A stretch of DNA of 39,935 bases from an uncultured Oscillospiraceae bacterium (lineage in GTDB: Bacteria; Bacillota; Clostridia; Oscillospirales; Oscillospiraceae), in contig CANROC010000023.1 in assembly GCA_947632175.1 (NCBI GenBank), forward strand, positions 1 through 39,935, given 5' to 3'. The notes below the pieces were generated by a model. The model saw nothing but the letters and a program-made list of their open reading frames with translations. It searched no databases and was not told the DNA's origin. The position numbers and the translations under genes were made by a program. Every line of letters starts with the position of its first letter. Within the stretch, counting starts at the first letter, position 1. Below are positions 23,333 to 39,569 of this stretch, one piece after another.

Positions 23333-23364
23333 GCCGCAGGTCACTGACCTGCGGCGGCTTTTTT
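23333..23364 (+). terminator. Terminator of the tRNA transcript
   Basis: GCCGCAGGTCA (23333-23343) and its exact complement (23345-23355) are followed by TTTTTT (23359-23364). The integrase stop codon lies inside this stem, so the two converging units share the site. Confidence 0.8.
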
Positions 23365-24570
23365 ATCTGCGGACCTGTCCTTCTTGAACAGGCTCCCCAT
23401 GGTTGCCGCTGACTCCTCCTGGGCCGTGTAGTCCAGATGTGCGTAGATGTCCGCCGTGGTGGAGAAGGTGCTGTGACCGAGCCAGATCTGTATCTGCTTC
23501 ATGGAGATGCCGTTTTGGAGCAGGAGACTGGCGCAGCTATGGCGAAGGTCATGGAAGCGTATTTTCCGAAGCCCGTATTTTTCCAAGAGCCATGCAAAGT
23601 GCTCCGTTAAGTAATTGGGACGCAGAATCTTCCCCAGTTGGTCCACGCACACATAGTCGATGTAATCCGGGCAGTAGCTCTTTTTAAAGAGCGCCTTGTA
23701 CATCTCCTGCTTCTCCTTTACATTCAGAAGGAGCTCCTCGACTGCAGGGATCAGTGGAAGGGTACGGAAGCTCGACTTGGTTTTCAGCACATCCTCTCCC
23801 ACCGTTACAGACTTGCCGTCCACCTGCAGTTCAACGACCTTGTGACGAATGGAGACGGTCTTCTTATCGAAGTCTATCGCATCCCACTTGAGTCCAAGTA
23901 CCTCGCTGCGGCGGAGTCCGTAATAGGCCGCGATTTTGATTGGCACCTCCAGAGGGTCGCCATCGGCCACGTCAAAGAGGGTCATCATTTCCTCCTCACT
24001 ATAGAAGGAGCCAAGGAACACGTTCTTCTTGGGCTTATTAGCCTGGTCTGCCGGGTTTTTGGAGATGACATCCCGCCGCACGGCGTTTTGCAGGGCTTTT
24101 CGGATAATGGCATGGTAGTGGATGACTGTATTGGTGGTACAGTTGTCAGCCAGAATACTGTCGTAGAAGTTGTTGATGTCCTCCGCCGTCAGCTCCCTGA
24201 CCAGGACCGGGTGGGCGGTGAACCAGGTGGTTATTCTGGATTGGACCATGTCGTTATAGCTTGTGTATGTGGTGGCCGCAATGGTGGAGCGGGATGATTT
24301 CAGCCACTTGGCCATGTAGTCCTGGAACATGAGTTCCGCATCGGGGTTGATCCGCCGCTGCGTCTCCAGCGCTGAGCGGACGAGTTGTTCCTCCTCCAGC
24401 TTCTCATAGGCCGCTCTGATTTGGTCCAGAGCCTTTTGCGCCTTTCTGATGCTTGTACCCTCCACGGGCAGGCCAGTGGCGATCCATTTGACTTTTCTTT
24501 TGCCATCGACCCTTAGATTTAATGCCGCATAGTACGATCCGTTTTTCTTTTGCAGGCTGCCTGTAATCAT
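23341..24570 (-). CDS. Tyrosine-type site-specific integrase
   Basis: 409 residues; ribosome site AAGGAGGTC just upstream of ATG 24570. There is an arm-binding N-terminal domain (GSLQKKNGSYYAALNL), a SAM-like core-binding domain (about 80-170) and a catalytic domain with Arg in YYGLRRSEVLGLKW, HDLRH (His340, Arg343), LGHS (His366) and Tyr376 in ADIYAHLD. All catalytic residues are present. It lies head-on to the tRNA-Ser gene, the normal place for an integrase acting at that tRNA. It is the end of a minus-strand group with an excisionase-like gene upstream; together they drive integration and excision. Confidence 0.95.
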   Translation of the reverse strand: MITGSLQKKNGSYYAALNLRVDGKRKVKWIATGLPVEGTSIRKAQKALDQIRAAYEKLEEEQLVRSALETQRRINPDAELMFQDYMAKWLKSSRSTIAATTYTSYNDMVQSRITTWFTAHPVLVRELTAEDINNFYDSILADNCTTNTVIHYHAIIRKALQNAVRRDVISKNPADQANKPKKNVFLGSFYSEEEMMTLFDVADGDPLEVPIKIAAYYGLRRSEVLGLKWDAIDFDKKTVSIRHKVVELQVDGKSVTVGEDVLKTKSSFRTLPLIPAVEELLLNVKEKQEMYKALFKKSYCPDYIDYVCVDQLGKILRPNYLTEHFAWLLEKYGLRKIRFHDLRHSCASLLLQNGISMKQIQIWLGHSTFSTTADIYAHLDYTAQEESAATMGSLFKKDRSADKKAAAGQ

Positions 24571-29512: not shown

Positions 29513-30751
29513 TTACTGATACATCATCCCCGGCATACGGACAAGGTCACGTCCGTCCTCCGGCATTTTCTTGTCGCCCATCAGGATGGCATTGTATATG
29601 GCCTTTCTACCAAAGCGCCGGCGGATGTCCTCAATCGCCAGCTGGAGTTGTCCGCGCCTGTCGTGCAGGGCGTAATCCGAATAAAGTGAGAGCTGCTCCG
29701 GCTGGCTCTGCGGTACGAGATTAATGGCCCGGATAGTCACCGCCCGGACATTGTTGCTCCATCTGTACCGCCTTTTGAAAAGTTCAAACCCGGCGTTGGC
29801 AATCTCCATGGACACCTGGGCCTTATACGGAAGCCTACATTGAAATTGTTCCCCCGAAAGGTCATTGGCCCGGACCCACAACTGCACTCCGGTGGCCGCC
29901 AGTTGGTGGACATGGAGCCGGTGGCCCACGTCCTGGCTCAGCTCCAAAATGACCTTATAGACCTCCTCCTCGTTTTCCAAATCCGCGACGCAGGTGATGC
30001 CGTGGCCGATGGACTTTATGGGGGAGGTGTAGTCTTGGGGCATGACGCGGCTGGTATCCAGTCCGTTGGCGTAGCTCCAGAGGGCGAGGCCATTGACTCC
30101 GAGGAGCCTTTTTAAAAATGCCGGGTCGCTTTTCGCAAGCTCCCCGATGGTGTGGATGCCGTATTTGGCGAGCTTGGCTGTCGTTGACGGCCCGCAATAG
30201 AGGATGTCGCTTGCCGGGAGCGACCAGACCTTATCTTCGTATTCGTCCCTTGCTATGGTCGTGATGGCGTCCGGCTTTTTCATGTCGGAGCCTAACTTGG
30301 CGAAGGTTTTCGTAAAGGAAACACCGATACTGACGGTGAGGCCCAGCTCGTCTTTCGTGGCTTGCCTTATCTTCTCCGCTATCTCCATGCCGCTCCCCAT
30401 GGCGCGGCTGAAGGAAATATCCAGCCAACACTCGTCCATGCCATAAGGCTCAACGAGGTTCGTGTACCGGCAGTATATCTCCTTTGCCAGCTTGGAGTAT
30501 TTCAGGTATTGCTCATACTGAGGGGGAACAACAATCAGGCTGGGACAACATCTTCTCGCCTCCCAGTTGACCATGCCGGTCTTGACGCCGGCTTTCTTGG
30601 CAAGCTCGGATTTAGCCAGCACGATCCCGTGCCGTTCCTCGGTGGAGCCGCAAACGGCCACGGCCTTGCCGCGCAAAGCCGGGTTTAACATCATCTCTAC
30701 GGAGGCGTAAAAGCTGTTCAAGTCCACATGGAGAATCGTTCGGTCAGCCAT
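29513..30751 (-). CDS. Y-family DNA polymerase (DinB/UmuC/UvrX type)
   Basis: 412 residues starting MADRTILHVDLNSFYASVEMML (GGGAG upstream of ATG 30751). The catalytic acids are in HVDLNSFYASVE and YGMDECWLDIS. SIGVSFTKTFAKLGSDMKKPDA and the HhH-like segment LAKYGIHTIGELAKSDPAFLKRLLG follow, then the little-finger domain (about 240-350). It copies damaged DNA with low fidelity. The promoter at 30782-30810 is perfect consensus, and the gene is divergent from a self-cleaving repressor, so induction by DNA damage is likely. First of an operon with the small protein, ImmA-type protease and zinc-ribbon genes. Confidence 0.93.
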   Translation of the reverse strand: MADRTILHVDLNSFYASVEMMLNPALRGKAVAVCGSTEERHGIVLAKSELAKKAGVKTGMVNWEARRCCPSLIVVPPQYEQYLKYSKLAKEIYCRYTNLVEPYGMDECWLDISFSRAMGSGMEIAEKIRQATKDELGLTVSIGVSFTKTFAKLGSDMKKPDAITTIARDEYEDKVWSLPASDILYCGPSTTAKLAKYGIHTIGELAKSDPAFLKRLLGVNGLALWSYANGLDTSRVMPQDYTSPIKSIGHGITCVADLENEEEVYKVILELSQDVGHRLHVHQLAATGVQLWVRANDLSGEQFQCRLPYKAQVSMEIANAGFELFKRRYRWSNNVRAVTIRAINLVPQSQPEQLSLYSDYALHDRRGQLQLAIEDIRRRFGRKAIYNAILMGDKKMPEDGRDLVRMPGMMYQ

Positions 30752-30781
30752 TGCACTCTCCCATTTCCTGTCTTTGAACGC

Positions 30782-30810
30782 ATTATAGCGCACATATATA
30801 TTGCTGTCAA
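30782..30810 (-). promoter_or_regulatory. Perfect consensus promoter of the polymerase operon
   Basis: Minus strand: TTGACA (30810-30805), a 17-bp spacer, TATAAT (30787-30782). The -35 box is inside ATTGACAG, also found at the divergent promoter. Such a strong promoter needs a repressor to be off. Confidence 0.85.
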
Positions 30811-30844
30811 TGTCGCAGTTGTAGCATAGTCTTAACATTTACTA

Positions 30845-30873
30845 TTGACAGACGGTATTCTCGGTAGTATAAT
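30845..30873 (+). promoter_or_regulatory. Perfect consensus promoter of the repressor gene
   Basis: TTGACA (30845-30850), a 17-bp spacer and TATAAT (30868-30873), with GGGAGG at 30888-30893 before ATG 30900. It shares ATTGACAG with the divergent promoter. Confidence 0.85.
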
Positions 30874-30899
30874 TCTGACATAAAGAGGGAGGCGAATCT

Positions 30900-31733
30900 A
30901 TGGTCAAGAATAATAACACGGTATCAATTATCCCGTTCCCGCGCATTGGCGCGTATAACGCGGAGAGGCAAGCCCAGGCAAATATCATCGGGGAGCGTAT
31001 TCGTGAGGCAAGGAAGGCAAAAAAGCTTAGTGGACCGAAGTTTACGGAGTTGCTTTCGCATTTTGGAGTGAAAATCACAAGGCAGTCCGCGGCCAGGTGG
31101 GAAACCGGGCAATGTACGCCCAATGCCTATCAGCTGCTTGCCATATGCCACGCTCTGGAAATTAGGGAGGGACTCAAGTACTTTGATGAGAGCTTCGAAT
31201 GGCCCGCAGACGAACTCAACGAGGAAGGCCGGCGAAAGGTCGAGGAATATAAAGCAGATCTCATTGCCACCGGTTTATATAAGCCGAGAGAGGCTGTGAG
31301 CAGACCAAGGATACATTATATCGAGGTCGATATAAGCACTCTGGCTGCTTCAGCCGGTACAGGAGATTTTCTGGATGCCGGAACCTTTGAGAAGGTGTCT
31401 TTTCCGGAGAAGGCAGTTCCGGCCAACGCGGATTTTGGCATTCGGGTCAACGGCGACAGCATGGAGCCGGTCTATCATGACGGGCAGATCGTATGGGTCC
31501 AGCGTTGCGAGACGCTGGAGCCGGGGGAAGTAGGAATATTTGAATATGACGGGAACGGGTATTTGAAGGAGTACGACGAGCGGGAGCCAGACGCCGGGTG
31601 TGCAGAGGACTTCACCGGCAGCGACGGAACTGTCCATATGCAACCGGTGCTTGTGTCTTATAACGAGGCATACGCGCCGATCATGGTATCTCCCAACGCG
31701 CCTTTCCGCATAGCCGGACGTGTTGTTACCTGA
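30900..31733 (+). CDS. Self-cleaving XRE/S24 (CI- or LexA-like) repressor
   Basis: 277 residues. The N-terminal XRE helix-turn-helix (IGERIREARKAKKLSGPKFTELL, then ITRQSAARWETG) is at about 30-85. After a linker, the S24 domain has a cleavage site Ala152-Gly153 in LAASAGTGDF, catalytic Ser187 in NGDSMEP and Lys223 in YLKEYD, the LexA/CI arrangement. Proteins of this kind repress mobile-element and DNA-repair genes until RecA filaments trigger self-cleavage. It lies divergent from the Y-family polymerase operon with interlocked regulatory DNA between, and just before a Cro-like gene. Confidence 0.92.
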   Translation: MVKNNNTVSIIPFPRIGAYNAERQAQANIIGERIREARKAKKLSGPKFTELLSHFGVKITRQSAARWETGQCTPNAYQLLAICHALEIREGLKYFDESFEWPADELNEEGRRKVEEYKADLIATGLYKPREAVSRPRIHYIEVDISTLAASAGTGDFLDAGTFEKVSFPEKAVPANADFGIRVNGDSMEPVYHDGQIVWVQRCETLEPGEVGIFEYDGNGYLKEYDEREPDAGCAEDFTGSDGTVHMQPVLVSYNEAYAPIMVSPNAPFRIAGRVVT

Positions 31734-32147: not shown

Positions 32148-33395
32148 TTATACGTTCATCTGTATGCTTACTACGAACATATTTCCTTCTGACGATATTT
32201 CCATAGACCCCTTATCCTTCTCCACACACGATTTAACATTTTTGAGTCCATAGCCATGGAGGCGTCCAGGTTTTGGAAACTCAGCTGGTAAATATGGGTT
32301 TGTGAGCTCATAGTAAAGAAGATTATTACTTTGTCGCAGAATAAGGTTCACAGTTCTTTTCCCTTTTGGCAAGTTCCTGCAAGCATCAAAGGCATTGTCC
32401 AAGGTGTTACCAATGATAATGTATAGGTCTGCCGGGGGGATGTCCAGTTCCGGGGCCACCCAAACATCAAGTTGCAAATCAACGTCGGCATCCCTGGCAC
32501 GGCGCAGAGCGTCGCTCAATATGCTGTCGATGACGTTATTTCCCACATCGACGCTATTGCTGACACGCTCATATTTTTCCCGAATTTCCGCAAAACATTT
32601 TTCCGCATCCGCCGTTTTGTCTGCATTTACCATTGCTTCCATAGCGGAGACGTATTTTTTTATGTCATGCCAAAGAGCGCGAGTCTCGTCCTGACGGGCA
32701 ATCATGCTTTGAAAATACTGCCGCTGGAGCACCGACAGCTTTTCGGCGGCAAGGTCGGCGCTTTTTCGTTGATAGTAGCTCTCCAGTAGCTTCACATAGA
32801 AACAAATCACAATGTTGATGACCATAAGGCATAGCGTGGTGAGTAGAATCGTCCCCGATCCAGCCTCGCCCGTAAGGGCAAAAAAACTTCGGTAACAGGC
32901 AAATAGGCTTAGCAAATGGCACGCCAGCAACGGGAGAGAAATAATAGAAAATGAGCTAGGTTTGTCGTGCTTGAAAATCAGAAGGACGATTTGAACGAGG
33001 AAAAGATTGAGAAGCTTCCCTAAGGCAAGATAGACAAGTCGCTCCGACTCACCCATGGCCAAATCCGCCCCGCGTCCCACCACCGTAAGAGCCGCAGCGC
33101 ATAAGACATCGGACAGGAAGATTGTCACATAATAAAGCCCCGTAAAATAAAAACACGGCATTGGTTTTGTCCTGTATGTGATGTAGTTTCCGATCAAGGA
33201 TATGAGGAATAAGAGTATTACCCGAAGCCACGGGAGCGGCACGAAAAAAGTCCCCAGTACTCCCGCTGCGAAAAAAACAGTGTAATATACAATCGCAATA
33301 TAGCGGTAACGATGTCCAAAAAACAGCCCCTCGTACAAATACAAGGCTAAAAGGATCTCCACCAACACCGTCACCAATTCAATTACAATAGACAT
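32148..33395 (-). CDS. GHKL sensor histidine kinase, AgrC-like
   Basis: 415 residues. Six or seven membrane helices fill the N-terminal ~205 residues, the peptide-sensing module of the AgrC class. A coiled linker leads to the phospho-acceptor His243 in RALWHDIKKY. The GHKL ATP-binding domain has its N-box GNTLDNAFDA (329 on) and G-box GYGLKNV (381-387). It lies 7 bp after the LytTR regulator gene on the same strand, and its transcript is divergent from agrD-agrB. It is expected to bind the cyclic peptide made by AgrD/AgrB outside the cell and phosphorylate the neighbouring regulator. Confidence 0.93.
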   Translation of the reverse strand: MSIVIELVTVLVEILLALYLYEGLFFGHRYRYIAIVYYTVFFAAGVLGTFFVPLPWLRVILLFLISLIGNYITYRTKPMPCFYFTGLYYVTIFLSDVLCAAALTVVGRGADLAMGESERLVYLALGKLLNLFLVQIVLLIFKHDKPSSFSIISLPLLACHLLSLFACYRSFFALTGEAGSGTILLTTLCLMVINIVICFYVKLLESYYQRKSADLAAEKLSVLQRQYFQSMIARQDETRALWHDIKKYVSAMEAMVNADKTADAEKCFAEIREKYERVSNSVDVGNNVIDSILSDALRRARDADVDLQLDVWVAPELDIPPADLYIIIGNTLDNAFDACRNLPKGKRTVNLILRQSNNLLYYELTNPYLPAEFPKPGRLHGYGLKNVKSCVEKDKGSMEISSEGNMFVVSIQMNV

Positions 33396-33402
33396 TAGCT
33401 AA

Positions 33403-34086
33403 TTATCCTTTCAGATAGTTTTTCAAATCTTCACGAAATGATTTGCTGTAGCTTCGTCCGACAGGAATTGCATCTCCATTTGTAAGAAAAACTTGATCCT
33501 GATCCACCCTTGCTACATATCTAAGATTGACACAGTAACTTTTATGTACCTGCGAAAATGTATACCCACTAAGTTGCTTCAAGACAGAAGAAAATGTGCA
33601 ACGAAGTCGCACATCTGGACAATTATGCAGGTGGAAACACACATCGTGCTGAAAAACCTCAAAATAGACAATTTCAGATATTGTCAAAACCTCCGTGCCG
33701 CGTTCCCCGCAAACACATACTTTTTCTGGCAAGGTTCTCTCTAGTGCCAACTTCAATACAGGCGCAAACATTTCAAAGCTTATAGGTTTTGGAAGATATC
33801 TGAGTGCGAGGCCATATCCTCTAACGGCGTAATTAAGGGTTTGAGTTGTAAAAATAATCACGGGAGGATTTTCTTGAGAACAAAGTTTTACTGCCGCATC
33901 AAAGCCATTCGGGGGTTCCATTTCAATGTCCATAAAAATAATGTTGGGTTTATCCTTGTCAGTAGCGTCAAGCAAAGCCTTTGCCGAAGAATATCTACGC
34001 ACAGGAAGCTTCGCATTATAGCGCAAGCAAAAGCCCATGAGAAGGTCGAGATCATTGGCATCATCGTCACATATTGCAATTATCAT
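33403..34086 (-). CDS. LytTR-family response regulator, AgrA-like
   Basis: 227 residues. The receiver domain has acidic pocket residues (CDDD, 6-9), phospho-acceptor Asp53 in IIFMDIEM, and late Thr and Lys (FTTQ, PKP). The LytTR DNA-binding domain (about 125-225) reads EIVYFEVFQHDVCFHL, SGYTFSQVHKSYCVNLRYV, ending NGDAIPVGRSYSKSFREDL. LytTR proteins bind pairs of ~9-bp direct repeats spaced ~21 bp, as seen at 34514 and 35379. Partner of the GHKL kinase. Middle gene of a three-gene unit. Confidence 0.94.
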   Translation of the reverse strand: MIIAICDDDANDLDLLMGFCLRYNAKLPVRRYSSAKALLDATDKDKPNIIFMDIEMEPPNGFDAAVKLCSQENPPVIIFTTQTLNYAVRGYGLALRYLPKPISFEMFAPVLKLALERTLPEKVCVCGERGTEVLTISEIVYFEVFQHDVCFHLHNCPDVRLRCTFSSVLKQLSGYTFSQVHKSYCVNLRYVARVDQDQVFLTNGDAIPVGRSYSKSFREDLKNYLKG

Positions 34087-34087
34087 G

Positions 34088-34411
34088 TTAATTGTCCTTT
34101 TTAAAATAGCGTTCCATAAGGGAAATCATATCAAGAATGTAATTCTGCTTTTCAGGAGATAGGCGTTGGGCGCGTATAGATATTTCTCTCGCAACGACAG
34201 AGCTTTCATCAATATCAAAGAAAAGCGTGTTAGCGTCAATCCCCAGAACCTCAATGATTTTTGCTAGTACGGGAGAGGAGGGGTAAGTCTCTGCTCGCTC
34301 TATTTGACCGATAAAACCAGCTGACTTATCAATAAGCTCAGCTAACTGCTCCTGCGTCATACCCTTTTGCATACGTTTTTGCCTAATCACTCTTGCAATT
34401 CTGTTTTCCAT
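34088..34411 (-). CDS. XRE-family regulator in the agr locus
   Basis: 107 residues. The N-terminal helix-turn-helix (VIRQKRMQKGMTQEQLAELIDKSAGFIGQIERAE) is followed by a short C-terminal helical part. Its stop is 1 bp before the response-regulator ATG, so it leads the regulator-kinase operon. A GTATATA/TATATAC inverted repeat (34423-34429 with 34444-34450) lies just before it and could be its own operator. Such an extra regulator is not part of the classic four-gene agr locus. Confidence 0.9.
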   Translation of the reverse strand: MENRIARVIRQKRMQKGMTQEQLAELIDKSAGFIGQIERAETYPSSPVLAKIIEVLGIDANTLFFDIDESSVVAREISIRAQRLSPEKQNYILDMISLMERYFKKDN

Positions 34412-34513
34412 AGAATCATCCCGTATATATAAGATGTAAGAATTATATACAGGAAAACTTCAAGAATACATATAGTGCAACTATTATTATACAATAGTCT
34501 TTCTTCAATTTCA

Positions 34514-34582
34514 ACGCTTCATTTCGCAAAAACTGCGCTTCGTGCCTGACCCCTTGTATTGCAAAAAATGGCGTATTATTAT
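34514..34582 (+). promoter_or_regulatory. agrD promoter with LytTR direct repeats
   Basis: ACGCTTCAT (34514-34522) and GCGCTTCGT (34535-34543) are 21 bp apart, the spacing of AgrA sites. CTGCGCTTCGTGCC ends at 34546; 7 bp later comes TTGTAT (34554-34559), a 17-bp spacer and TATTAT (34577-34582). The ribosome site AAAGGAG (34601-34607) follows. Confidence 0.7.
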
Positions 34583-34616
34583 TGGTTTATCAATTTAAAG
34601 AAAGGAGCTTATTCCA

Positions 34617-34781
34617 ATGGATAAGCTGAAAAGAACAATCCAAAAAGCATCCGGCATCATTGCTCCACTTGCGCATTCTTTGGCGGTCACGACAATGAAC
34701 TCCACCTGTTTTTTGTTCACAAATCAACCCACTCCCCCGAAGCAGATGGACAAGTATAGAAAGTTCAGTAAACATGATTAA
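34617..34781 (+). CDS. agrD: AgrD autoinducing-peptide precursor
   Basis: 54 residues, AAAGGAG 9 nt upstream of ATG 34617. An amphipathic N-terminal leader (MDKLKRTIQKASGIIAPLAH) is followed by the peptide core NSTCFLFT, then the recognition tail QPTPPKQMDKYRKF. The Cys31-to-Thr35 ring (C-F-L-F-T) mirrors clostridial AgrD (C-L-W-F-T followed by HQPEEPK in C. perfringens, from memory). The end overlaps agrB by 8 bp (34774-34781), as usual for pairs translated together. AgrB cuts and cyclises it into a thiolactone signal sensed by the GHKL kinase on the opposite strand. The exact N-terminal end of the peptide cannot be read from the sequence. Confidence 0.9.
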   Translation: MDKLKRTIQKASGIIAPLAHSLAVTTMNSTCFLFTNQPTPPKQMDKYRKFSKHD

Positions 34782-35370
34782 AAATCTGTGTGTCCGAATA
34801 ACGGAAATATGGTGTGATTCCAATGTGATAACGGAATCAGACAAAGAAGAGTACATGTACGGTTTGGAGCTACTCATCTCAACCACTATAAATTTGTTCT
34901 GCTTGATCCTGATTTCCTTTTTGTTTGGCAAGCAACAACTTTTGATTCCGTACTTACTGAGCTTCATTCCTGTGAGACTTTTTGCCGGCGGATTCCATGC
35001 CAAGACGCATTGGGGGTGTGTTACTTTCACATCTGTTCTATACTCGCTGACGCTGTTGTTTGTTCACATCATACCAACAAGAGCTTCTTTTCAAGTAGGT
35101 TATATCATTGCACTTTTTTCTTTGGTAGTGATACACTCGTTGGCCCCCGTCGCGGCCGTCAATAAGCCGCTCACCACGGAAGAACACAAAGTCTTTCGAA
35201 AGGTCTCTCAGACCATATCGCTCTGTATTTTAATGCTTGCCTTGGTAGCTGACCTTTGCAAGCTTAATATACACAATGACATTGTTTTGACTTATTTGTG
35301 TGGAGAAGGAGCAGCGGCAGTATCAATGGTTGTTCAGGAAGTAGTGGCGAAAAGTCGGGAGAACCGATGA
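34774..35370 (+). CDS. agrB: AgrB peptide-processing membrane protease
   Basis: 198 residues. RLFAGGFHAKTHWGC holds catalytic His75 and Cys82, the same 7-residue spacing as His77/Cys84 of S. aureus AgrB. About five or six membrane helices (38-52, 55-70, 84-100, 105-125, 150-170) and a basic tail follow. It removes the AgrD tail and forms the thiolactone. It starts inside agrD. Order here is D then B, the reverse of S. aureus (B-D-C-A), and the sensing genes are on the other strand. Confidence 0.95.
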   Translation: MIKNLCVRITEIWCDSNVITESDKEEYMYGLELLISTTINLFCLILISFLFGKQQLLIPYLLSFIPVRLFAGGFHAKTHWGCVTFTSVLYSLTLLFVHIIPTRASFQVGYIIALFSLVVIHSLAPVAAVNKPLTTEEHKVFRKVSQTISLCILMLALVADLCKLNIHNDIVLTYLCGEGAAAVSMVVQEVVAKSRENR

Positions 35371-35378
35371 CAAATATG

Positions 35379-35446
35379 TTGTTCGTGTTCGATTTTCTGC
35401 GGTTCGTGCCAAGCACATTGACTTCTTGCATTAGACATTCAATAAT
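35379..35446 (+). promoter_or_regulatory. Second LytTR-type promoter, just after agrB
   Basis: GTTCGTG repeats at 35381-35387 and 35402-35408 are exactly 21 bp apart. CTGCGGTTCGTGCC (35397-35410) differs from the agrD-side site in 1 of 14 bases. Seven bp later come TTGACT (35418-35423), a 17-bp spacer and AATAAT (35441-35446). It starts right after the agrB stop. The 35447-35708 stretch that follows shows no clear gene; a GGAGG at 35464 precedes a 20-codon TTG-started frame (35475-35537) of low credibility. Confidence 0.7.
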
Positions 35447-35708
35447 GAGAAGCGTAACAAGCTGGAGGTGAGTATTGTCCTATCCCCTTTTTGCGGTTCG
35501 AAAAAATCTCTTTTATTGCATACTACATATAACATAACAATGTTTACTCGATGAAAAAGCATGATGCTGCCTGATCAACAGTTCATGAATAGCTCTGTGG
35601 AAATTGGCTGGTGCACACCAATTGACTCGATATTCATTCCATAGACTGTCAGTGGAATAGAGCAAGGGTTGACAGTAAGAAACAATATAACAATTGGAGG
35701 TATATTAT

Positions 35709-35780
35709 ATGAAAACCAGATCACGTTTTGTAACGTTTGCTATGGTCTTTGTTATGATGTTGTCCATTTTCACCAAATAA
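35709..35780 (+). CDS. 23-residue hydrophobic peptide
   Basis: ATG 35709 has a perfect GGAGG at 35696-35700, 8 nt upstream. The peptide is MKTRSRFV... then a hydrophobic, Met-rich stretch and ends SIFTK: a basic head plus one membrane-length segment. It stands about 260 nt into the transcript from the LytTR-type promoter at 35379-35446 and 23 bp before the FemAB-like gene. It might be a short secreted or membrane-active peptide (compare delta-haemolysin in RNAIII), a leader peptide, or a leftover signal peptide of a lost gene. Confidence 0.55.
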   Translation: MKTRSRFVTFAMVFVMMLSIFTK

Positions 35781-35803
35781 AATCTTTATGTAGGGTAAAA
35801 TAG

Positions 35804-36871
35804 ATGCGATTAGTTGGAAACAAAGCGGATTTGGATCTGGCGGAGCGATTCTGTGAGAACCACCCCATGGGGCACTTCATGCAATCGACAAGATGGGCGG
35901 GTGTGAAGTCGAACTGGAAGAATGAGATTATTATCGTCGAGGGAATCGACGGACAAATCACCGGCGTGCTCAGTGTCTTTATACGAAAAATACCGGTGTT
36001 TGGGAATCTGATGTATTGCCCAAGGGGTCCGGTGTGCGACGTACACGACACTGACTCCCTCCGGCAGCTCACCGAGGGGGCCAAGTTTTTGGGCCGCTGG
36101 TACAAGTCAATGGCCCTGCGAATGGAGCCGGACGTGTCGGCGGGCGACGACACGTTCAGGGAGATTATGGAATCCCTTGGGTATCAGATCCGAGATAATG
36201 TCAAAAGTAGCCGTAACCTCATTCAGCCCCAAAGCGTTTTTCGGCTTGACCTCCGGGGCAAAACGGAGAAGGAGATATTCGCCAGATTCCACAAAGATCT
36301 TCAGTACAGTATACGCCTCAATCAAAGGCAGGGCGTGGAGATACGGGAGGGAACGAAAGAGGAACTCCCCGTATTCTACAAGCTTATGGAGGAAACGACT
36401 AGCCGGGACGGTTTTCCTATACTGCCCATGGAATATTATCAGCATGTCTGGGACTCCATGGGGCAAGAACATATGAAACTGATGTTGGCGTATCTTGACG
36501 GTAGGGCGGTGGCAGCGGCAATGTTCGTCCACTACGCCCGTCGCACCTGGTACTTATACGGGGCTAGCACTACAATTGGCCGCTCCTCCATGCCGTGTCC
36601 CCTGCTTCAGTGGGAGACGATATGCGACGCCATACACCGTGGCGACGAGGTCTACGACCTACGGGGATTCTTTGAGATTACCGACGAGAACGACCCCCGT
36701 TCCGACATCTACCGTTTCAAAAAGCAGTTTGGTGGGGAGCTTGTGCGTCTTGTGGGGGAGGTTACGCTACCCTTCAGGCCGATTGTTTACAAGTTCTATC
36801 GCATTGTGGAAAAGATTAATTTTACATGGCGACATCTTATTTATGGCGTTGAGAAAAAGCGTACTCGGTAA
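35804..36871 (+). CDS. FemAB/FemX-family aminoacyltransferase
   Basis: 355 residues. FARFHKDLQYSIRLNQRQGVEIREG (the Fem R-N-I-R-x-A-x-K-x-G-V-x-V region), YKLMEETTSRDGF, YLDGRAVAAAMFVHYARRTWYLYGAS and YDLRGFFEITDENDPRSDIYRFKKQFGGELVRLVGEVTLPFRP are the order and pattern of the double-GNAT Fem fold, including the closing Y-x-F-K-x-x-F-G motif. Fem proteins add amino acids from tRNA to the peptidoglycan stem peptide. The gene is downstream of the LytTR-type promoter and the 23-residue peptide, so it may be under agr control. Its ribosome site is weak. Confidence 0.9.
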   Translation: MRLVGNKADLDLAERFCENHPMGHFMQSTRWAGVKSNWKNEIIIVEGIDGQITGVLSVFIRKIPVFGNLMYCPRGPVCDVHDTDSLRQLTEGAKFLGRWYKSMALRMEPDVSAGDDTFREIMESLGYQIRDNVKSSRNLIQPQSVFRLDLRGKTEKEIFARFHKDLQYSIRLNQRQGVEIREGTKEELPVFYKLMEETTSRDGFPILPMEYYQHVWDSMGQEHMKLMLAYLDGRAVAAAMFVHYARRTWYLYGASTTIGRSSMPCPLLQWETICDAIHRGDEVYDLRGFFEITDENDPRSDIYRFKKQFGGELVRLVGEVTLPFRPIVYKFYRIVEKINFTWRHLIYGVEKKRTR

Positions 36872-37049
36872 TCCAATCAAGACGTATCCCACAAAATAAA
36901 GCGTTTATACTTCATATAGCTAAAGCAACGGTTTTTGAACAGGAAACTATTTTGTGAGTTACTGCGGAAGCTTGTTCTGGGTGTAATATTACAACCGCAG
37001 TTACGTATGAGAAGAGTATTGTTAAATCCAATAAAAAGAGGTGTTTTTC

Positions 37050-37526
37050 GTGAATACAAAAATGAGATTTATATTTGTGTTGCTGCTATGCGCATTGCTG
37101 GTTATTCCAACAGATGCATCTGCAAGTGAAAGTGATTTTGTCGTTGATATACCAAGTGCGTCTATGCGATCTTACGATTCAAGCTTTACCTTGGATTTCA
37201 TCAGTTCTTCTGCGTGGTACTTGAATATTGACAACGACGCATTTGCTTTTTTGAACCATCGTTATGTGAAGGTTAGCTATGATTCATGCACCCCGAGTAA
37301 CGAAAAAGCAAGCGTTAAAATTGAACTCCATATTGATGACGATGAAGATGGCACTTATGAAATCTATGATTCCGCCGGAAGCTATACATACCAACTTGTA
37401 GTGGGAGAAAGTGTAAAGATAAAGTTGCCCCTCGGCAACACTGTTGCAAAATATCGTCTATTCTTTGTTAATCAAACTGCTTCTGTAAAATCAGGTAAAT
37501 TTACCGTGACAACAAGCCGTAGCTAA
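37050..37526 (+). CDS. Small secreted protein of unknown function
   Basis: 158 residues from GTG 37050 (AGAGGTG 37037-37043). The signal peptide is at 1-25 (ends DASA). The mature ~130 residues are acidic and beta-rich (FVVDIPSAS, FTLDFISSS, VKIELHIDDDEDGTYEIYDSAGSYTYQLVVGESVKIKLPLG, KYRLFFVNQ), giving the impression of an Ig- or C2-like sandwich. No cysteine pair or anchor. AT-rich, followed by the lipase-like gene 54 bp later. Function unknown. Confidence 0.75.
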   Translation: MNTKMRFIFVLLLCALLVIPTDASASESDFVVDIPSASMRSYDSSFTLDFISSSAWYLNIDNDAFAFLNHRYVKVSYDSCTPSNEKASVKIELHIDDDEDGTYEIYDSAGSYTYQLVVGESVKIKLPLGNTVAKYRLFFVNQTASVKSGKFTVTTSRS

Positions 37527-37580: not shown

Positions 37581-39227
37581 ATGAAACATTTAAAGAAGAT
37601 ATTGACTTTAGCTCTTGCCTTTATATTGGTCATGTCATTATCTACATCGGTTTTTGCGGACAATCTTGATGATGAGATTCAGACCGCTACATCCGCGAAG
37701 AAAAAAGCCATCGTTATCATCCCCGGAATATTAGGCTCATCTCTTGAAACTACGTCTGGGCAGGAAGTATGGTTGCACCTAACTAACTTTGGAAAGATGG
37801 CTTTGAATGAGGAGGGTGAATCTGTATACGATATTCGTTCTGCAAATTATGACAACTATGGTGCTAATAATACATATAAGACACTTTATAACTCACTGAA
37901 TAACGCTTTTGGAGACAACTTTGATGTTATCTTTTTTGATTATGACTTCAGATTGCCAAATGCGAGGTCTGCAACAAAACTGCAAACGGAGTTATCTGGA
38001 TATAGTGAGGTCGTATTGGTTGCACACAGCATGGGAGGGCTGGTCGCAGGATATTTCTTAGCAAGCAGCGCAGTAAATCGCCAAAAAACGACGGCGTTGA
38101 TTACTTTAGGCACCCCTTTTGTTGGGGCTGCAAAATGTATTAATGTGATGGAAACTGGTGAGATGATTACCTTCAATCTACTTGGCCTCAATTTTAATCT
38201 TTTTAAGGACACAATTAAGGATATGAGTAAGAATTGTTGTGCAGCCTATCAACTTTTGCCGACTTCAAATTATTATAGCATTACGGGATTGTATCCTCTT
38301 TCTGTAAATGGAACAAATTATGCTTCAGTTAGAAACCAGTTGGAAAAAACAGCTTGGGGCAAAAGGAGTAATGGAACAACAAAACCAATGTTCCTTACGG
38401 CAACTGTTTTCCATTCGTCTCTCTTTAATGGTACGACACACATAACTGATTATAACGATGTCAACGTATATACTATTGCAGAAAACGGTGAAGATACAAT
38501 TTCGAAGGTCAGCATGGATTCGAATTATAAAATAACAGCGTTAACTTATTCCAATTCTGGTGATGGAACCGTATTATATAAGAGCGCAGGATATGGAACG
38601 CCCGACTACACATACACGGGTACAAACCATACGGGGATGGTATCTGATTCTAAAGTTATTTCTCGAATTAAGTCCATCATCACATCAGAAACCGGTGTAG
38701 CTGCAACAAGTGTACCCTTTGCGGAAATGTCTGCTGATGAGAATAATATTGTGTATACATCCGAATCGACTGAGATAGTTGCCGACAATCTTACGATAAA
38801 TGAGCGAGGCTGGATCGACGGCTTTGACAATAGACGCATCAATATCTACGCAGATAATGATAGTGTATTATTGGTGAACGGCCTCGCTGCCATCGAAGAC
38901 AATGAGAGAGTATTTGATCAAAATGGCGTTAGAATTGGAAGTGTGTGGGAGATTGGTTCCACTGGCAGGAAAATGTATGCGCTATATAATGGTGAGTATG
39001 AGCTTTCTGGTACTGGATTTTTGAAAATTGAGTACATGGACAGCGGATACTTTGACAGTATTGAAGAATATAATCTTGGCGTAAATACCCAGTCGGTTAG
39101 TATCGGAGATTATACGACTCAGTTAGTCACTTGTAGATTAGGTGATGGACAGATGGCATCAGAAGTTGAAATACAACCGATTCATACCTACTCTGCAGCA
39201 GAATTGATGGAGTTAAACCGGGACTGA
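37581..39227 (+). CDS. Secreted LCAT-like lipase/acyltransferase
   Basis: 548 residues; signal peptide 1-26 (FILVMSLSTSVFA). The alpha/beta-hydrolase core has IPGILGSSLE (47-56), DYDFRLPN, nucleophile Ser150 in VLVAHSMGG, GTPFVGAAKC, Asp328 in SGDGTVLYKS and His350 in TNHTGM. The GDGTV and IPGILGS patterns point to the lecithin-cholesterol acyltransferase branch rather than to simple lipases. The last ~180 residues are beta-rich and unlike the catalytic part. It would act outside the cell on phospholipids or other esters. AT-rich cargo of the element. Confidence 0.88.
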   Translation: MKHLKKILTLALAFILVMSLSTSVFADNLDDEIQTATSAKKKAIVIIPGILGSSLETTSGQEVWLHLTNFGKMALNEEGESVYDIRSANYDNYGANNTYKTLYNSLNNAFGDNFDVIFFDYDFRLPNARSATKLQTELSGYSEVVLVAHSMGGLVAGYFLASSAVNRQKTTALITLGTPFVGAAKCINVMETGEMITFNLLGLNFNLFKDTIKDMSKNCCAAYQLLPTSNYYSITGLYPLSVNGTNYASVRNQLEKTAWGKRSNGTTKPMFLTATVFHSSLFNGTTHITDYNDVNVYTIAENGEDTISKVSMDSNYKITALTYSNSGDGTVLYKSAGYGTPDYTYTGTNHTGMVSDSKVISRIKSIITSETGVAATSVPFAEMSADENNIVYTSESTEIVADNLTINERGWIDGFDNRRINIYADNDSVLLVNGLAAIEDNERVFDQNGVRIGSVWEIGSTGRKMYALYNGEYELSGTGFLKIEYMDSGYFDSIEEYNLGVNTQSVSIGDYTTQLVTCRLGDGQMASEVEIQPIHTYSAAELMELNRD

Positions 39228-39254: not shown

Positions 39255-39569
39255 ATGAATATTTTTGAAAATCCTATTAACGCATTCTTGCTTGGGGGTG
39301 TTCTGCTCGTTGTGTTATTTGTATTTCAATTATTCCTTTGCAAAAAAGCAAGAAGAACATCTGTTAAGCTAATTCCTTTGTACGGTTTACTTCTTATGGT
39401 GGGAGTTGTTCTGCTTACTTGCCTGGGCGTTTTTGGGACAGGTAATGGTTTTATAGGAAATATAAACATATTAGTTGCGGAAATTCTCGCGATACCAGCT
39501 GTTTTCTATTTAGTGGGAATTGTAGCCGCTTGGATAGTTTATTACTGTCAATTGAAGCGAAGAAAATAA
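39255..39569 (+). CDS. Three-helix membrane protein of unknown function
   Basis: 104 residues; GGAGGG about 9 nt before ATG 39255. Three membrane helices are seen (about 10-28, 40-60, 70-96) with Lys/Arg-rich loops (CKKARRTSVK) and tail (QLKRRK). No motif is recognised. It is 27 bp after the lipase-like gene and probably in the same transcript, so it may assist or protect against that enzyme, but this is only a guess. Confidence 0.75.
   Translation: MNIFENPINAFLLGGVLLVVLFVFQLFLCKKARRTSVKLIPLYGLLLMVGVVLLTCLGVFGTGNGFIGNINILVAEILAIPAVFYLVGIVAAWIVYYCQLKRRK

Follow-up and report, generated by a model that had tools for sequence, protein, structure and literature searches.

P2 and P3, the two promoters of the Staphylococcus aureus agr locus, are divergent promoters. 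According to the available part of one published account, they occupy a shared intergenic region, with the proximal repeat centred near −60 and spacers of 18 and 20 bp (PMC4227749). LytTR regulatory systems of the HdrR/BrsR type, which consist of a LytTR regulator and a membrane protein without a kinase or agr genes, are described in the accessible text of another study as having direct repeats of 9 bp, 12 bp, and 9 bp, mostly 10 bp before the −35 element, with boxes such as ACCACTTAC (PMC6193735). In C. difficile, RgaR has VirR-like direct repeats with G−51 and G−72, 21 bp apart, and activates agrB1D1 and a few other promoters; changing those G residues lowered one RgaR promoter, as far as the portion of the report at hand goes (PMC10602386). 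Our searches of an open-access library for clostridial AgrA binding sites with direct repeats returned only work on S. aureus AgrA, and agrD linked with femAB and LytTR genes was not found there.

Here, we analyze an agr locus of an uncultured Oscillospiraceae bacterium in a stretch of 39,935 nucleotides (contig CANROC010000023.1; hereafter the window). Like S. aureus agr, the locus combines a LytTR regulator with agrBD and a kinase, and it has two putative regulated promoters, one of them before the autoinducer genes, with paired direct repeats upstream. Unlike P2 and P3, as far as these are described in the source available, the window promoters are in tandem on the forward strand on either side of agrDB rather than in one shared region; both have 17-bp spacers instead of 18 and 20 bp, the repeat lies nearer to the −35 element, and the box is a different one. 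The kinase and regulator genes are also divergent from agrDB, there is an extra XRE gene, and FemX, not RNAIII, is the proposed second output. Judged by the accessible parts of the sources, the geometry is identical to that of the HdrR/BrsR-type systems (PMC6193735), and it is closer to these systems and to RgaR of C. difficile than to P2/P3 of S. aureus. This geometry is already known, both from LytTR systems of streptococci and from RgaR of C. difficile (PMC6193735, PMC2766830, PMC10602386, each in the part available); the box is lineage-specific.

Genes of the agr locus

A full agr set is present, comprising AgrB, an AgrD with a Cys-containing core, a GHKL kinase, and a LytTR regulator. The kinase, regulator, and XRE genes, identified with Pfam, are on the reverse strand, and agrD and agrB, identified with NCBIfam and Pfam, are on the forward strand. 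The AgrC-like sensor histidine kinase of 415 amino acids (32148..33395, reverse strand) has a HATPase_c_5/GHKL domain (Pfam PF14501, E 4e-13), and the AgrA-like response regulator of 227 amino acids (33403..34086, reverse strand) matches LytTR (E 9e-16) and Response_reg (E 8e-11). Upstream of the regulator gene, and probably in one transcript with it, is a gene for an XRE-type HTH regulator (34088..34411, reverse strand; HTH_3, E 9e-14). A promoter-like site for these three genes, TTGAAA-17-TATAAT, was listed by the promoter scan with 11 of 12 matches at 34486..34514 on the reverse strand.

On the forward strand, agrD (34617..34781) encodes a predicted cyclic-lactone autoinducer precursor of 54 amino acids that scores 19.3 bits against NCBIfam TIGR04223 (quorum_AgrD), barely above the cut-off of 19 bits; by eye, its core STCFLFT precedes NQPTPPKQ. 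The end of agrD is overlapped by agrB (34774..35370, forward strand), which encodes 198 amino acids (Pfam AgrB, E 1.2e-33). The next sizeable gene, at 35804..36871 on the same strand, encodes a FemAB-family transferase (FemX-like, hereafter FemX; Pfam FemAB, E 1e-55). Directly before it, the sequence alone suggests a 23-codon ORF (35709..35780, forward strand) with a ribosome-binding site and a signal-peptide-like start; an NCBIfam search with it gave no match, and it is possibly a decayed lipoprotein gene or remnant, or a small peptide.

Further out in the window, a tyrosine-recombinase-like ORF was recognized by eye at 23341-24570, about 7.6 kb from the kinase gene, and the region may be mobile. 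An ORF of 104 amino acids at 39255-39569 has a 74.5% identical relative in G019 (L050:11109-11426), where the LytTR two-component genes are about 3 kb away, and beside that relative lies a 25-amino-acid match to the end of the acyltransferase-like gene at 37581-39227.

Two composite sites with one layout

Site 1 lies within the 205 bp that separate the XRE gene from agrD, and site 2 begins 7 bp past the agrB stop codon. The order of elements at both is 9-mer, 12 bp, 9-mer, 10 bp, −35, 17 bp, −10, in the same register. In site 1, the candidate distal LytTR half-site ACGCTTCAT (34514..34522, forward strand), found by sequence and layout scan, is followed at a distance of 21 bp by the proximal half-site GCGCTTCGT (34535..34543, forward strand), which lies inside CTGCGCTTCGTGCC (34533-34546); the two halves agree at 7 of 9 positions. 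The predicted promoter 1 before agrD (34554..34582, forward strand) has the −35 element TTGTAT (34554-34559), 17 bp, and the −10 element TATTAT (34577-34582). In site 2, the distal half-site GTTGTTCGT (35378..35386, forward strand; sequence and layout scan) and the proximal half-site GCGGTTCGT (35399..35407, forward strand), inside CTGCGGTTCGTGCC (35397-35410), likewise agree at 7 of 9 positions. The gap between the latter 14-mer and the −35 element is 7 bp, and promoter 2 (35418..35446, forward strand) has TTGACT (35418-35423), 17 bp, and AATAAT (35441-35446). With a consensus match of 3 of 6 in the −35 element of site 1, the promoter scanner missed this site and listed site 2 (10 of 12). The sequence-only reading of this DNA had already given repeats at a 21-bp distance (CGCTTC at 34515/34536, GTTCGTG at 35381/35402) and a 13 of 14 match between the second repeats followed by 7 bp, −35, 17 bp, and −10, all of which proved right when we rechecked the sequence.

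The fourth base of both 9-mers is C in site 1 and G in site 2. The broad consensus of LytTR half-sites is GTTN[AG][TG]; both halves of site 2 (GTTCGT) fit it, and those of site 1 (CTTCAT and CTTCGT) carry C for G. Transcription starts are predicted near 34589 and 35453, the latter 7 bases after the −10 element. Counted from 35453, the two halves of site 2 each contribute a G, at −51 and −72, as in C. difficile RgaR sites according to the accessible text (PMC10602386), and site 1 has C there, which is why site 1 may be weaker or differently tuned. The −35 element of the divergent promoter-like site of the XRE, regulator, and kinase genes touches the distal repeat of site 1.

Rarity of the sites in the genome

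CTGCGSTTCGTGCC occurs twice in the 3.54-Mb genome, both times at these sites. The pattern GSTTCGTGCC-N7-TTG has two zero-mismatch places genome-wide, again only these, and 11 one-mismatch places. The 21-bp double-box pattern was found at nine places, seven of them in stop-free frames of 203–696 amino acids; the two sites described here are not in such frames. In dinucleotide shuffles, the strict layout arose 5 (stretch 1) and 13 (stretch 2) times per 20,000, and with relaxed spacings it arose in 44 and 61 of 8,000 shuffles of the intergenic stretches; joint occurrence was 0 in both cases, the layout criteria having been fixed after the sites had been seen. The promoter scan of the region listed four promoter-like sites against 5.7 expected from shuffles, so that nothing can be concluded from the promoter boxes by themselves.

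Searches for further targets in this genome gave nothing beyond chance, with 124 forward and 101 reverse places at no more than two mismatches, compared with 103 and 99 for a reversed-pattern control. A third site of exactly this kind was not found in the genome (97.7% complete), which suggests that the regulon is small and local.

The sites recur beside orthologous regulators of the genus

Orthologues of the response regulator, 55–59% identical over their full length, are present in 8 of 33 congeners, and in all eight an orthologue of the kinase (61–66% identical) adjoins them. Each of the eight has a composite site upstream of the regulator gene and directed away from it, roughly G[TC]CGTTCGTGCCGCGAAAA-N6-[GT]TCGTGCC, 7 bp, TTGA, in register with the window sites. 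In G012, G002, and G001, the operator likewise has a divergent promoter-like site listed next to it. As read from these sequences, CTGCGSTTCGTGCC is the local form of a putative genus-wide box, roughly [GC][GT]TCGTGCC. In G002 and G024, a second kinase-regulator pair (L042:9398-11866 and L038:5117-7792) has a copy of the site on either side, much as the window sites lie around agrDB.

We built a profile, R1, only from the 11 sites beside the regulator orthologues of these eight congeners, leaving the window out. Within the window, sites 1 and 2 ranked first and second of 40 matches (12.8 bits, E 0.0041, and 11.5 bits, E 0.011), and the third match scored 4.6 bits. These scores are far below the 51–62 bits of the training sites. 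Genome-wide at E≤1, the window sites ranked first and third of three, with a GC-rich match of 12.0 bits on contig C9 between them. At this threshold, 28 of 34 genomes have some match (150 of 3396 first-look candidates were scored), so that the R1 scores of the window sites are at noise level at genome scale. Matches of at least 45 bits in the 34 genomes were the 11 training sites and one site each in G013 (C31) and G024 (C19); among the matches listed, all others, including the window's two, scored below 20 bits. G013 is the only one of the 25 congeners without a regulator orthologue that has a strong R1 match; no match to the regulator was found in its assembly (84% complete, 7% contamination), and the site is followed by a lipoprotein-like gene and a gene for an ABC transporter. 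In G006, the best of three R1 matches, a weak one of 14.2 bits, is about 70 bp before the only AgrB match of that genome.

A tblastn search with the window AgrB over 12–18 kb around each of the eight congener regulators found no AgrB. Six of these eight congeners have no match to the AgrB family anywhere in their genomes, the assemblies being incomplete (G018 the least complete of them, at 76%); the AgrB matches of G002 and G030 are on another contig than the regulator orthologue.

Loci beyond the genus and the 21-bp period

In G415, which belongs to another genus of the same family, locus L142 has the gene order of the window, with identities of 53% (XRE), 44% (regulator), 37% (kinase), and 37% (AgrB). 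As in the window, the XRE, regulator, and kinase genes are divergent from agrD-agrB, and a composite site precedes agrD: ACGGTTTGT and GCAGTTGGT lie 21 bp apart and agree at 6 of 9 positions, followed by 10 bp and TTGCGC-17-TAGTAT. Unlike the window, the G415 cassette, whose proteins are only 37–53% identical to ours, has no clear second site or FemX in the 369 bp after agrB. G630, with a 40% identical regulator, has ACCGTTCGT and GCTGTTCGT with the spacing of the window sites, much like site 2. With different boxes, ACCACTTAC and TCATTTCGT among them, this layout was found by script in more distant agr loci of G015, G035 (agrD), G013 (C72), and G520, and by eye in those of G002 (C54) and G035 (agrB). 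An XRE gene adjoining the LytTR regulator recurs in agr loci of five genomes; its relatives are 53% identical at the same position in G415 (L142) and 39–43% identical in G002 (L047), G015 (L046), G686 (L145), and G634 (L147).

A period of 21 bp gave matches in 24 of 31 upstream stretches, compared with 0–7 for the 13 other periods from 15 to 28 and a shuffle expectation of 3.2; the stretches were chosen by hand, mostly after the site had been seen, and include the window's two, so that the fair element of the test is the control with other periods. Seven of the 31 failed the criteria (G024 TCS1, G030 TCS, G018, G011, G035 agrB, G006 agr, and G001 FemX), and some best matches are another site, out of register in G010 and the divergent promoter in G012, G002 a, and G002 agr. 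The matches in the G686 and G634 agr loci (6 of 9) are near the shuffle rate, those in the G160 and G030 agr stretches are chance-like, and the layout is not in every agr locus.

An order-wide test covered 29 of the 30 AgrB loci L097–L126, the window's own L120 being left out (AgrB matches were present in 38 of 295 genomes). With at least 9 of 12 promoter matches, the 21-bp period was found at seven promoters in 5 of 29 loci and other periods at 0–4; with at least 8 of 12, it was not favoured (10 against 2–11). In two control sets, 24 loci with weak model matches and 17 other LytTR loci, the period of 21 was not prominent among the few promoter-like sites (36 and 46). No AgrB was confirmed in viral contigs, and the locus had no match in plasmids. 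Among other genome contigs, AgrB matched at two distant loci, both of Lachnospiraceae (best segments 31 and 38%); searched with the two site patterns, these loci gave nothing except one three-mismatch word in L052.

The gene behind promoter 2

FemX orthologues of 71–79% identity are present in 7 of 33 congeners, that of G018 being a piece; further relatives of 43–52% look like a second gene. FemX (at least 70% identity) goes with the regulator orthologue, being present in 6 of 8 congeners with it and 1 of 25 without it (Fisher p 0.00017, ignoring shared descent). The orthologues of G002 and G012, 74–75% identical, follow a strong site of the same strand at distances of about 1 and 3 kb. The promoter 2 −10 element with its following bases, CAATAATGAGAAGCGTA, is identical at 17 of 17 positions (E 0.006) to a place behind G002 site b, which leads to the FemX orthologue of that genome; no other remnant of the congeners' operon was found between site 2 and FemX. 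Because FemX is the next sizeable gene, has orthologues behind such sites, and co-occurs with the regulator, and because promoter 2 has this match in G002, FemX is most likely the target of promoter 2.

Elsewhere in the genus, the FemX orthologue of G006 comes after agrB-agrD, and that of G001 directly follows a gene for an AgrC-like kinase, with no intervening agrB. The G001 site before FemX, which is of the G006 type, and the G006 agr site are both degenerate and were seen by eye only. In G011 and G030, FemX lies behind an operator-like TTATACA/TGTATAA palindrome that may be BlaI-like, with a 123-amino-acid ORF downstream (L157, L158). No LytTR site was seen before FemX in these two genomes, and the G018 piece shows none. 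With this different palindrome in front of it, FemX may be inducible, an effector that several regulators control.

Discussion

Since sites 1 and 2 are the top two window matches of the congener-derived profile and the 21-bp spacing recurs in other loci, both very probably serve the adjacent AgrA-like regulator as operator-promoters. With good though incomplete confidence, we read them as tandem LytTR operator-promoters driving agrD-agrB and the FemX transcript, respectively. The LytTR assignment of the sequence-only reading is thereby supported by sites beside orthologous regulators and the 21-bp layout; conservation of the paired repeats in relatives, which that reading had named as a check, was found in 8 of 8 congeners and before agrD in G415, and the difference that it had seen from the S. 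aureus box reflects a lineage-specific one. Its comparison with P2/P3 held for promoter 1 before agrD-agrB but not for the geometry, nor was there a sign of an RNAIII-like RNA.

In mechanistic terms, the 9-bp repeats on a 21-bp period would lie on the same helix face, where the phosphorylated regulator may bind each repeat pair as a dimer and recruit RNA polymerase. At promoter 1, it would raise agrD-agrB; should the AgrD-derived peptide be what the adjacent kinase senses, as gene neighbourhood suggests, the loop would be a positive one. At promoter 2, it would raise a transcript whose first sizeable gene encodes the FemAB-family enzyme at 35804, and peptidoglycan cross-bridge modification would then follow population density. 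The contact of site 1 with the divergent promoter suggests that the regulator may also act on its own gene.

A chance resemblance of two AT-rich promoter regions would be in keeping with the short boxes, the post hoc criteria, the low profile scores, and the promoter boxes that do not exceed shuffles. We consider it very improbable, as had been claimed for the equal layout at the outset, given that a profile from congeners alone puts sites 1 and 2 on top, that the layout never arose in both stretches of one shuffle, that the period control singles out 21 bp, that GSTTCGTGCC-N7-TTG is unique to the two sites in the genome, and that the syntenic G415 locus has such a site. It is also improbable, if less so, that the sites are bound by the neighbouring XRE regulator, whether in place of the LytTR regulator or competing with it. 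In five other agr loci, an XRE gene does separate the regulator from the agr genes, but there is no XRE relative between regulator and site in the eight congeners (HTH matches in L041 and L042 are other ORFs elsewhere), and direct repeats at 21 bp are a LytTR pattern in the accessible parts of the sources (PMC6193735, PMC2766830). Somewhat more credible, though still unlikely, is that the product of promoter 2 is not FemX mRNA but, as with S. aureus P3, a regulatory RNA of the RNAIII kind or a small peptide: about 350 bp without a long ORF follow it, and the 23-codon ORF at 35709 has a ribosome-binding site. Against this, the 351-nt stretch after site 2 folds no better than shuffles (z +0.96), the sole Rfam match is to a snoRNA family inside the FemX gene (14.7 bits against a cut-off of 41), blastn of 35371-35803 against 20 related loci at E≤1 returned only the 17 bp of the promoter, and no terminator-like site was found on the forward strand in 34400-37100.

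The strongest competitor to an autoinducing loop, one to which we give a sizeable minority chance, is a feed-forward arrangement in which the two-component system answers another signal, as its orthologues without AgrB presumably do, and switches on agrDB and FemX, the AgrD peptide being sensed elsewhere. The lack of an AgrB match in six of the eight congeners that have the orthologous kinase and regulator (G018 being 76% complete) argues for it, as does C. difficile RgaSR, which activates agrB1D1 and does not sense AgrD1; the available portion of that report does not name a FemX target (PMC10602386). Arguing for sensing by the adjacent kinase, the agr genes adjoin it in both the window and G415, and its sensor half has diverged more from the congeners (53–59% identity) than its kinase half (66–73%), compared with means of 82 and 83% among congeners. 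This excess fits a changed ligand, but weakly, because sensors diverge faster in other agr pairs as well (29 against 42% for window and G415, 23 against 51% for the G002 and G015 agr kinases).

The congener regulators are closer to that of the window than the G415 regulator is (55–59 against 44%), yet have no agrBD beside them, and the full order of the cassette is common to the window and G415. Both loss of agrBD in the congeners and its gain in the window lineage are possible. The UmuC-like polymerase and LexA-like repressor genes of the window (29513-31733) are 93–96% identical to a pair in G002 C54 (L047) that adjoins another agr cassette, only 29–39% identical to that of the window; a near-identical pair beside a dissimilar cassette speaks for a possible exchange of agr cassettes at this place. 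In a scenario that we hold to be less likely than not, a LytTR circuit and operator of nine species of the genus would have been joined to, or stripped of, agrBD, with operator and regulator still recognizable; in the window, the operator would stand before both agrDB and an inducible FemX, bringing a cross-bridge enzyme under quorum control with a changed sensor ligand.

Taken together, these loci point to one layout, a 21-bp period, 10 bp, −35, 17 bp, and −10, in which the box varies by regulator lineage, and by this layout agr-type regulons could be read directly from genomes of uncultured bacteria. In this genus, one regulator and its operator occur both with an autoinducer cassette and without one, which makes a natural comparison possible, and the window provides a candidate connection from agr signalling to enzymes of the cell-wall cross-bridge.
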